Shown piece by piece: positions 59,719-64,000 of a stretch of DNA of 64,000 bases; position 1 is the stretch's first letter, and every line of letters begins with the position of its first letter. The translations under genes were made by a program, and so were the position numbers. The notes beneath the pieces were generated by a model. It was not told the origin of the DNA. It was given only the letters and a program-made list of their open reading frames with translations, and searched no databases. The stretch covers positions 62,001 through 126,000 of the forward strand of contig NZ_JAILWF010000005.1 in NCBI RefSeq assembly GCF_025699065.1. Reading direction: 5' to 3'. Source of the stretch: Nitrosarchaeum sp. (lineage in GTDB: Archaea; Thermoproteota; Nitrososphaeria; Nitrososphaerales; Nitrosopumilaceae).

Positions 59719-61443
59719 CTACTGAACAATAACTTTGCCTGTCATCCAAGGATGTAACATGCAGTAATAATCATACTCACCAGAATCAGTAAATACATAA
59801 TCCCATGTTTCTTTTGGTATTATCATTCCTGAATCAAATAATCCATCATGTACTGCATTTACTCCACTAGTTACTGTATGAGCTGCAGAGTCAGCATTAA
59901 CCCAAACTACTGGCTCTCCAGAGTAAATTTCAACTATATAAGGAAGATAGCATTCGTTTGTAGTTTCACATCCAGGTGCACTAGACCCCAATGCCATTGT
60001 AACTTCAACAGGTTCTGAACGTTTCTCTGTTGGTTCAGGAGTTGGTTCTGCAATTGGTTCTTCAACAGGTTCTTCAACTGGTTCTGGAACTGGTTCTACA
60101 ACTGGCTCTTCAACTGGTTCTTCAACTGGTGTGGGTTCTTCAACTGGATTTACATACACCTCTTCAAATTCATTTACACCAATTTGTCCAATCATCCAAG
60201 GATGAACCAAACAAAAGTAAGGATATGTTCCTGCTTTATCAAAAGTAAATGGAAAAGTAGTTCCAGACATAAACAATCCAGAATCAAATAGACCATCCAT
60301 TCCATCTGGAGTTCCCGAAGTCACAGTATGTGCTGCAGTATCATCATTACTCCATGAAACAGTATCACCAACATTAATCTCTAAAGAATATGGCAGATAG
60401 CAAGAGTTAGTAGTCTCACATCCAGGAGACGACACATCTTGCGGAATTGAAACTGTATGAGTTGTTGGAAGAGCAGGCATTGTCATAACAGGAGATACCA
60501 TTCCAGGTGATTTCGTAGCACTGACAGAGTAACTTACTGTAAACTGAGTAGTGTTTTTAGTGTGAACTGCAAGTGCATTTCCTGAAAACTCCCAAGAGCC
60601 CATTGCATTTTGAGGATCAACAAATGTCATCTCAAAAATAGTCGTACCATCCACAGTCCAAATTTTTTCTGGATTTTCATCAGGACCAATTGGACCTCTT
60701 AATGTAATTAGTTGAATTGGCTCAGATGCAGAGTATGATAAAATTCCAGAATAAACATCACTTGATGGAGCAATAATCATTGCAATTTGATGTGACTCAT
60801 GTCCCATTCCAGGGTCTTGTACTGAATCCATAGTTCCAGACATTACAGTATCAGACATCAAACTATCAACCTTGTAATCAACAGTAAAGGGTGTTGTATT
60901 TTTTGTGTGAATTGCAACTGCATTACCTGCAAACTTCCATTCTCCAATAGAACTATCCGGAGTTACAAATGTAAGTGCATACTTTGTCGTACCATCCAGA
61001 GTCCAGGTTGGTTGCCCTTTAGCTTCGCCATCTTTTAGCGGACCATGTAATGCAATTAGTTGAATTGGTTCAGATGCATCATAGTGTAATGTACCAGAGT
61101 AAATTTTATCAGATAACGGAATAACAGATACTGATTGATGTGCTTCGTGTCCAATACCTGGATGTTGTGTGGATGTCATTCTAGTAAATCCATCTTGTAA
61201 TGGTTTTTCAACTGCGCATTCACCAGGATACGCAAGTTGTACATTTGCTGCACCTAACATACATAAATTACCATAAGTTACACCGTCAACACCGCAAACT
61301 GGATCATACTGCATAGTACATGCAACAGGTTTTGCCTCAGGTTCTACAATATATCCAGGATCCATTGAAATGAAAACCAAACTGATTGCTACTAAAACGC
61401 CAACTGCTGCAATTATTCCAACTGTAAAATTCATCTTATCCAC
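59719..61443 (-). CDS. Membrane-anchored Kazal / double-cupredoxin protein
   Basis: 574 aa. N-terminal anchor (6-26), Kazal-type domain (42-76: [14 protein letters not shown] ... GEC), two homologous beta domains (about 85-205 and 210-325, each with HPG/DPGMGHE-H ... and [11 protein letters not shown]-like strands), a first plastocyanin domain (about 340-430, AAHTVTSG ... YFCLVHPWM), a Pro-Glu-Val repeat spacer (about 435-485) and a second plastocyanin domain (to the end, AAHTVTSG ... YYCMLHPWM). Two type-1 copper sites facing outside; probably an electron carrier or copper-holding protein. The upstream HEAT-repeat gene overlaps it by 8 bp. Confidence 0.9.
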
Positions 61444-61924
61444 CTGTTAGTTTTGCAAACTTTTCATTCTTACTTAACTTTTCCATAAATTCAATATTAG
61501 ATAATGCGACCACGGCAGACTCTACTACCGGAGTCTCTGGATCATTTAATGCTTTTTCTAAAATTGCTTTTGCATCTTTTGAGCCAATCACACCAAGTGC
61601 TATTGCAGCTTCGTGTCTTACAAACAAACTAGGGTCATTAAGTGTGGCATCAGCCAAAGGAGGAATGCAACTAGATAGACACATCTGCCCAAGTGAAAAT
61701 GCTGCTTCATGTCGTACTAGTTCGTTAGTATCATTTTTCAAGACTTTGGCAACGTGTGGAACTTTATCTTCGCCACCAAAATCAACTAGAATGCAAGTAG
61801 CCCTAGTTCTTATTACAAAATCTGGATGAGACAAAAGATTCACAAAGTAGGCAGTATCTTTTTTTTCATATTTTGCCTCCATCTCAGCAAATAGATCCAA
61901 TCTGTTTTGAGTTACTGCCTGCAT
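61436..61924 (-). CDS. HEAT-repeat protein
   Basis: 162 aa of about four PBS-lyase/HEAT-like repeats ([45 protein letters not shown]). Scaffold or cofactor-handling role presumed. Its 3' end overlaps the start of the copper protein by 8 bp, suggesting joint expression. An internal Cys pair (MCLSSC) may bind metal. Confidence 0.85.
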
Positions 61925-62028
61925 TTTGCTTTCAGGTTTTTTATATCCTATATTAGGTTACCCGAAATATCTGCATCATTATACAATATGCGTTATCTTT
62001 TTAAAAGAAAAAAAATCAACGTCGAACA

Positions 62029-62691
62029 ATGAGTGTCGTAATAGGACAAAAAGCGCCAAATTTTGCAGTCTCTGATTGGGTTCAAGGAGCTCCGACAAAC
62101 TTTGATCAGGAAAAAGATCACATCGTACTAGTCGAGGTATTTCAGGTAAATTGTCCTGGCTGCTTTATGCATGCATTGCCTGAGGCAATTAACATCTACA
62201 ACAAATACAAAGATGATGGGGTACGAGTAATAGGAATCGCTACTGCCTTTGAAGATTATGATAAAAATACTCTAGATAATTTAAAAAAATTAGTTGAGAC
62301 AGGCGAAGTAATTGGAGAGACAAAAGATGCACTGTCAATGTACGGTCAACTACAAGCAGGTAACAAACTGCCATACAAGATTCCATTTCCATTAGCAATG
62401 GACAAACTAACCAAGATAGATGGCAAAGTAAGTGATGATAAAGTAATGCAGTTTATCTACGGACAAATTCCAGAATTTGATTCACAACCAGAAGAATACA
62501 GAAAACAGATAATCCAAAGAGTCAAAGACTACATGAAATCAAAAGAGTATTCAGCAGAAACTTTTGAGAAATTTTCCTTACAAGGAACACCTTCAATGAT
62601 CATAGTGGATAGAAAAGGAATCTTAAGAGATGTCTCCTTTGGACAATCAGGAAATGTAGATGCAGTTATTCGAAAATTGTTAAGCGAATAA
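62029..62691 (+). CDS. Redoxin / TlpA-like thioredoxin-fold protein
   Basis: Thioredoxin fold of 220 aa with active-site CPGC (VNCPGCFMHALPE, near residue 43) and a late cis-Pro loop (SLQGTPSMIIVDRKG). An insertion of about 60 helical residues (100-165) distinguishes it from ordinary TlpA. No signal peptide, so cytoplasmic; a thiol reductase or peroxidase-like role is presumed. Confidence 0.85.
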   Translation: MSVVIGQKAPNFAVSDWVQGAPTNFDQEKDHIVLVEVFQVNCPGCFMHALPEAINIYNKYKDDGVRVIGIATAFEDYDKNTLDNLKKLVETGEVIGETKDALSMYGQLQAGNKLPYKIPFPLAMDKLTKIDGKVSDDKVMQFIYGQIPEFDSQPEEYRKQIIQRVKDYMKSKEYSAETFEKFSLQGTPSMIIVDRKGILRDVSFGQSGNVDAVIRKLLSE

Positions 62692-62693
62692 AA

Positions 62694-62912
62694 TCATTTA
62701 GATTTTTTATCTTTTTTCTTTGATTTGTTTTTATTTTCCAAAAGGTCTATTGCTCGTTGATTCGATAAAGTCCAGGCTTTGAACATCTGTCTAAAAACTT
62801 CATTTAGTTGCTTATTTTCTGTAGTTCCTATCTGTATCTTGTAAGACTCCCATGCAGCAATAATTGATTGATTGCTTTTTTTTAAAAATGCTAGCGCTTC
62901 TTTTTCTCCCAA
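62694..62912 (-). CDS. Small lysine-rich helical protein, 72 aa
   Basis: Helical, ending in a Lys/Ser-rich tail (ENKNKSKKKDKKSK). Convergent with the redoxin gene, 2 bp away. No family recognised. Confidence 0.6.
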   Translation of the reverse strand: MGEKEALAFLKKSNQSIIAAWESYKIQIGTTENKQLNEVFRQMFKAWTLSNQRAIDLLENKNKSKKKDKKSK

Positions 62913-62950
62913 TAATGAAGAGGTAAAATCACCGCTATTTTAGCCAATAT

Positions 62951-63028
62951 CTAAAGTATAACAAGCAACACAGATAGTATCACAACAATACAAAATCCGC
63001 CAATTAGTGCAACCTTTCCATTATCCAC
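62951..63028 (-). CDS. Membrane microprotein, 25 aa
   Basis: GTG frame of 25 codons: a short charged start (MDNGK) and one hydrophobic helix to the stop (LIGGFCIVVILSVLLVIL). The rest of the 230-bp gap 62913-63142 holds the promoter of the channel gene. The pattern resembles tiny membrane peptides of ammonia-oxidising archaea; uncertain. Confidence 0.4.
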   Translation of the reverse strand: MDNGKVALIGGFCIVVILSVLLVIL

Positions 63029-63142
63029 AAATATTCACCATACAGATAAAATAAATATGAATTTCATTTGCAAATGTCAAATATTCACCGTAGAAAAGTG
63101 GCAGGGTTTGTTTTTATACAAGGAAAACAGGATTGTCTGACA

Positions 63143-64000
63143 ATGAAAATCACTTATTATGTTTTGGCATCATTGATTATTTTATCATGCACACTGGTTA
63201 TTCCCAATATAGTTGCACAACAAAGTCAATCAGATAAAAAAACATACACCATAGGAACATATCTCCTAAATATTGGAAAAATTGATCTTCAAAATGGAGC
63301 TTATGATCTTGACTTTTACATTTGGATAAAATCTGATGATGCTAATTTTATTGAAACAAAACCAAAAATTGAATTTATGAATGGAAAAGCCACTATAGAA
63401 CCAATCACAATTGAAAAAAATTACTATGAGGTAAGAGTGAAAGGAATATTTCAAAAAAATATGGATTTTAGAAATTACCCCTTTGAAAAGATCTTTCTAA
63501 CAGTAGAGATAGAAGGTCTTGAAGACATGAAATCTTTAGAATTTGTTCCAGACTTGGAAGAAAGTGGTGTGGATGATCTAGTAAACATTCCAGGATGGAA
63601 TCTAAAATCTACAAACTCGGATGTTTCTATTCACAAATATTCAGATGGTTCAGAATTTTCCAGATATGTGTATTCACTTGAGATTGAAAGATTTCACTTG
63701 TCTTCATTTTTGAAGACTATGCTACCAGTAATTATAATCACAACTATTGCAATGCTTGCATTTTGGATGAGCCCAACAAACTTTACTGCAAGAATAGGTC
63801 TAGGGGCATCTACATTACTTGCAGCAGTTGCAGCCCACCTTAATGCTGCAAATCAATTACCCCCGATTGGATATCTGACACTGTTTGACAAGATAATGAT
63901 TATAGCTTATGCTCTATTTCTCAACAATCTTCTTTCAATGGTTATTCAAATGAGATTAATCGATCACAAACGTGAAGAAGATGCAATCAAGATTAATGCA
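63143..64000 (+). CDS. Pentameric ligand-gated ion channel homologue, 5' part
   Basis: ATG 63143, with a TTTTTATAC TATA box about 28 nt upstream; the frame runs off the window after 286 codons. Signal peptide (1-25); a beta-sandwich extracellular domain with GTYLLNIGKID, YDLDFYIWIKSDD and, in place of the Cys-loop, MDFRNYPFEKIFLTVEIE; then M1 (FLKTMLPVIIITTIAMLAFW), M2 (ARIGLGASTLLAAVAAH), the M2-M3 loop LPPIGYLTLFDK and M3. No Cys pair, as in prokaryotic members such as GLIC. M4 is beyond the edge. An ion channel gated by an unknown extracellular signal. Confidence 0.85.
   Translation, partial: MKITYYVLASLIILSCTLVIPNIVAQQSQSDKKTYTIGTYLLNIGKIDLQNGAYDLDFYIWIKSDDANFIETKPKIEFMNGKATIEPITIEKNYYEVRVKGIFQKNMDFRNYPFEKIFLTVEIEGLEDMKSLEFVPDLEESGVDDLVNIPGWNLKSTNSDVSIHKYSDGSEFSRYVYSLEIERFHLSSFLKTMLPVIIITTIAMLAFWMSPTNFTARIGLGASTLLAAVAAHLNAANQLPPIGYLTLFDKIMIIAYALFLNNLLSMVIQMRLIDHKREEDAIKINA

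Follow-up and report, generated by a model that had tools for sequence, protein, structure and literature searches.

The analysed stretch of DNA (the window) spans 64,000 nucleotides of a Nitrosarchaeum genome and ends inside a gene for a pentameric ligand-gated ion channel (pLGIC) homologue. Codons 1–286 occupy positions 63143..64000 of the + strand, with 60 bases more beyond the window. The full gene, recovered from the source genome (G000, contig C5; L002:5143-6063), continues for 20 codons past the window end to a stop and encodes 306 amino acids. As read from the sequence, these last 20 codons supply the fourth helix, M4 (MRKSMPIICVLIFLALLVV), whose absence would have refuted the family assignment made in an earlier note from the truncated frame. 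A TATA-like TTTATA (63113-63118, + strand) lies approximately 28 bases 5' of the ATG, a spacing that would fit a leaderless archaeal transcript. Both this element and the start context TGACAATG are kept in an orthologue from the same genus (L004), and the region of a longer, TTG-started frame carries indels relative to it; the ATG at 63143 is therefore the likely start. The L004 orthologue, from another genome, is 88% identical to the window protein. The dN/dS ratio for this pair is 0.066/0.656 (approximately 0.10), which shows that the gene is under purifying selection. The source genome holds a single copy and no paralogue.

The flanking genes (peroxiredoxin, L15e) are shared only with a genome of the same genus (G024), and the other orthologues lie in unrelated surroundings. 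With no conserved partner beyond the genus, the neighbourhood was dropped as a clue to function. Genome G216 (L146, G216:C1:525000-542000) shares with window 61000-64000 and L002 a block of peroxiredoxin, L15e, a D-3-phosphoglycerate-dehydrogenase-like gene and a multicopper oxidase. There is no pLGIC at the window's position in this block; a different pLGIC, of the GER type, sits a few kilobases off, with the multicopper oxidase on one side and the dehydrogenase-like gene on the other. On the – strand of the window, positions 59719-61443 encode a secreted protein with one Kazal-type domain and two cupredoxin domains.

The window protein is made of a signal peptide, an extracellular domain (ECD) and helices, all encoded on the + strand. 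The predicted signal peptide comprises residues 1–30 (63143..63232; end approximate), for which the pLDDT is low. Residues 31–184 (63233..63694) form the extracellular β-sandwich, with AlphaFold strands at 33–182 and support from Foldseek. The β6–β7 Pro-loop motif Y112-P113-F114-E115 lies at 63476..63487, and P113 is invariant in a conservation set of 85 sequences. M1 comprises residues 185–208 (63695..63766) in the AlphaFold model and contains a nearly invariant kink proline, P195. It is followed by the pre-M2 triplet T215-A216-R217 (-2', -1' and 0'; 63785..63793), the predicted charge filter, which is free of acidic residues. The pore helix M2, defined by the alignment and the model, comprises residues 214–236 (63782..63850) with R0', G2', S6', L9', A13' and H15'. 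The M2–M3 loop QLPPIGY (residues 238–244; 63854..63874) contains P240 and Y244, both invariant in the 85-sequence set. M3 was modelled at residues 247–274 (63881..63964). M4, at residues of about 288–306, lies outside the window; it was assigned from the sequence and is modelled in the homologue L033. The coordinates given in the earlier note hold for the open frame, the signal peptide, the YPFE strand, the M1 proline, TARIGLG, the LPPIGYLT loop and M3.

Sequence and structure searches agree on the family. Used as a single query against the PDB, the truncated window protein retrieved GLIC first (6e-16), and sTeLIC also scored approximately 1e-15. A profile of the 85 relatives matched GLIC chains from end to end at approximately 1e-34, with a GLIC–GABA-A chimera marginally at the top. 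The AlphaFold model of the window protein has a pLDDT of 91.6, with a confident β-sandwich and helices; that of the full-length homologue L033 has a pLDDT of 92.4 and shows all four helices. The best Foldseek matches were GLIC, sTeLIC, DeCLIC, GABA-A and GlyR, with E values of about 1e-22 to 1e-20, so that prediction and fold comparison bear out the pLGIC fold that the earlier note had proposed. The conserved superfamily residues, which have been listed together with the F/YPxD motif (PMC4795631), are all present: the β9 Trp (W152), the pre-M1 Arg (R183), the M1 Pro (P195) and the M2–M3 Pro (P240). The Asp of the [F/Y]PxD Pro-loop is replaced by E115, a known rare substitution (PMC4795631). 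These results show that the gene product is a pLGIC with a β-sandwich and four helices. The earlier note had described a Cys-loop superfamily layout. The fold and residues are those of that superfamily, but residues 31–184 contain no cysteine, so the protein belongs with the Pro-loop receptors and falls outside the Cys-loop receptors strictly defined. Pfam PF02932 scores 27.8 bits against a cut-off of 28.1, so automated annotation would narrowly miss the gene; the NCBIfam model TIGR00860 (1e-15) also falls below its family cut-off.

Members were found in 24 of the 250 genomes of the family, 37 of the 330 of the class and 41 of the 397 of the phylum sample, the class and phylum samples overlapping that of the family. 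Across the family, where the earlier note had proposed to check conservation, the distribution is patchy. Several genomes have a second or even a third copy, and not every copy is intact, a pattern compatible with a dispensable gene subject to frequent loss. The broken relatives include L133 and G355:C1:2688045-2690212; that of G355 is split, and L009, L011 and L018 have internal stops, which suggests repeated gene decay, though sequencing errors may contribute. A scan of named genomes with one peptide pattern, hence no census, found relatives in Bathyarchaeota, Brockarchaeota, Hadesarchaea and several DPANN groups, and among bacteria in Bipolaricaulota, Chloroflexota, Myxococcota and Planctomycetota. 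A record labelled Hodarchaeaceae (Asgard; L094) holds a relative in two open frames, probably owing to a frameshift; for Lokiarchaeota, no significant match has been reported (PMC4795631). The plasmid search retrieved only distant bacterial relatives, mainly from Azospirillum, at 22–28% identity.

GLIC and sTeLIC, the proteins closest to the whole window protein in both sequence and fold, share about 22% and 19% identity with it and differ from it in the pore. GLIC has E-2' and N0', an M1–M2 linker two residues shorter, and a histidine at 11' instead of 15'; sTeLIC has D2' in the alignment, and ELIC has E-1'. When the transmembrane domain was compared alone, it scored best against the anion-selective GABA-A α5/α1, slightly above GLIC. 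The M1–M2 linker aligns without a gap to GABA-A and with a two-residue gap to GLIC and sTeLIC. GABA-A shares with the window protein its linker length, A-1' and R0'. GlyR and GABA-A differ in having the Cys-loop cysteines and a large intracellular domain, P-2' and T13', and the window ECD is acidic. Of the anion-type pattern (P-2', A-1', basic 0', T13'), the window protein has A-1' and R0', but T-2' and A13'. The acid at -1'/-2' or in the inner pore that marks the cation type is missing, with no D or E from -2' to 20' in the alignment; the lack of an acidic residue at the pore start, in which the earlier note set the protein apart from GLIC, is real.

We aligned 91 domains. The 0' residue is basic in 90 of them, whatever the residue at -1'. 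The window clade consists of eight orthologues, six of which belong to the family of the window genome and two to a second family in its order. M2 carries no acidic residue from -2' to 20' in any of the eight, and 0' is R. The pre-M2 triplets of this clade are TAR, TSR, APR or PPR, with PPR in the two orthologues from the second family. In the adjacent thaumarchaeal clade, 12 of 13 members bear an acid (D or E) at -1', and the triplets AER and GER found there resemble the motif of animal cation channels. On a tree built without the pre-M2 columns, parsimony gave 7 changes for an acid at -2', -1' or 2' versus 19 with shuffled labels (none of 500 shuffles was as low), and 4 for an acid at -1' alone; the tree was made quickly and has long branches, so the counts are approximate. 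An acid-free pore start is typical of the Bathyarchaeia, DPANN and Bipolaricaulota sequences sampled and also occurs in distant bacterial relatives. The likeness of TARIGLG to the GlyR start quoted in the earlier note, PARVGLG, is fair and agrees with the GABA-A match of the transmembrane domain, but it is not peculiar to the window gene because such starts are widespread in prokaryotic relatives. Genomes G214 and G217 each hold one acid-free and one acid-bearing pLGIC gene. In G217 (L139, G217:C14, 8776-10700), an AER (cation-like) and an APR (anion-like) gene are adjacent on one strand; judged from this arrangement, the pair could be co-transcribed and form heteromers. The net charge of the ECD, which is -8 to -17 in the window clade, was tried as a discriminator and fails, as both clades are acidic (acid-free -12, acid-bearing -14).

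Our preferred reading, which we hold at a little above an even chance, is a homopentameric Pro-loop pLGIC that is most likely anion-passing and gated by a ligand or by protons. We infer the pentamer, its gating, its anion preference and its physiology along the following lines. One gene would supply one subunit, and the homomer is the simplest assembly because the source genome has only one such gene. The pentamer would sit in the cytoplasmic membrane, its β-sandwich facing outward beneath the S-layer. Between the extracellular domains, a small ligand from outside or a proton may bind, and the signal would travel through the YPFE loop, then the pre-M1 arginine and the M2–M3 loop, to the five M2 helices, opening the central pore. 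A ring of R0' with no acidic ring at the inner pore end would favour anions. The open channel would most likely conduct chloride or similar small anions, shifting the membrane potential or ion balance.

We put the odds of an anion preference at somewhat better than even. The lack of an acidic ring, the ring of arginines, an M1–M2 linker as long as that of GABA-A and the GABA-A score of the transmembrane domain speak for it; T-2', A13' and the acidic ECD speak against it. Work cited in PMC8011927 bears on it from both sides: neutralising the ring of GLIC gave anion selectivity in simulation, E-1'A in 5-HT3A gave slight anion selectivity and A-1'E in GlyR gave cation selectivity, but E-1'A alone did not invert the selectivity of the α7 nAChR in experiments. 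Selectivity of both kinds has been predicted from pre-M2 residues for prokaryotic ART-LGICs (Tasneem et al. 2004; PMC549065), a set that is mostly bacterial with two Methanosarcina sequences and is without Thaumarchaeota.

A pLGIC that is cation-selective or weakly selective is a serious alternative, though we place it clearly below an even chance. Here, the acidic outer vestibule (ECD net charge about -12 in the window clade) would concentrate cations, and R0' would be inert toward ions passing the pore, as suggested by its occurrence in almost every family member irrespective of -1'. The pre-M2 motif is said in general not to predict selectivity in prokaryotes (PMC4795631), and the characterised channels ELIC and GLIC conduct cations (PMC12637682, PMC8011927). 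Yet those two keep E-1' and E-2', respectively, and the window M2 has no acidic ring; with -1' acidic in almost all of the sister clade, the position looks constrained both ways. We think it unlikely that the pLGIC fold serves here mainly for sensing and not for ion flux, in a receptor that conducts poorly or in one subunit of a complex. The patchy distribution and the lack of a conserved operon partner outside the genus would suit such a role, but there is no cytoplasmic domain for signalling, and conservation is highest in M2 (82–100% identity to seven orthologues; ECD 54–65% in six of these), in keeping with a pore that gates and conducts. That the gene encodes some unrelated membrane protein or is a pseudogene in decay was rejected as very improbable indeed: the split and stop-bearing relatives would speak for decay, but the frame is intact under the low dN/dS, and the profile and fold matches extend over the full length.

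An archaeal pLGIC as such is already known. Jaiteh et al. (2016; PMC4795631) reported a robust Thaumarchaeota clade of Pro-loop receptors that comprises ten sequences, spread over six species; one of the examples depicted is that of Nitrososphaera viennensis. The clade members are like the window protein in phylum, in lacking the cysteines and in their conserved residues. That report is silent on the selectivity of the clade; the division into acid-free and acid-bearing members and the M2 15' histidine come from the present analysis. What is new is the window clade of eight acid-free orthologues against an acid-bearing sister clade, the two being paired in two genomes. The paired paralogues are the part most worth experiment. 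They may represent two thaumarchaeal lines of opposite selectivity, anion for the window gene and cation for the GER/AER/SER/DEK genes, an idea that we put forward tentatively and would sooner doubt than accept. If true, prokaryotes would have a parallel to the division of animal receptors into inhibitory and excitatory ones, and the window gene would be a prokaryotic anion-selective pLGIC. A literature search, with subscription journals mostly outside it, found no characterised archaeal pLGIC and no prokaryotic anion-selective one, and as of 2016, none of the unicellular pLGICs had a known biological role (PMC4795631). A compact acid-free archaeal homologue with acid-keeping paralogues offers a natural test of the residues that set charge selectivity, and the same contrast bears on whether anion selectivity existed outside animals. 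Here, an ammonia-oxidising archaeon carries a gene related to the channels of animal nerve receptors, and the product resembles chloride channels at the inner pore end more than it does the known cation channels of bacteria.

Four relatives have longer open frames and possibly, to judge from these frames, extra domains: in L067, L088 and L089, roughly 200 or more additional residues precede the channel part, and in L100 they follow it. A histidine at M2 15' (H232, window 63836-63838) is present in 86 of the 91 aligned sequences and in 98% of the 85-sequence set. It was absent in all three plasmid-borne bacterial relatives examined. In known structures, 15' is turned from the pore, toward neighbouring helices. 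A part for this histidine in pH gating is a guess. It is common to archaeal relatives of both pore types.
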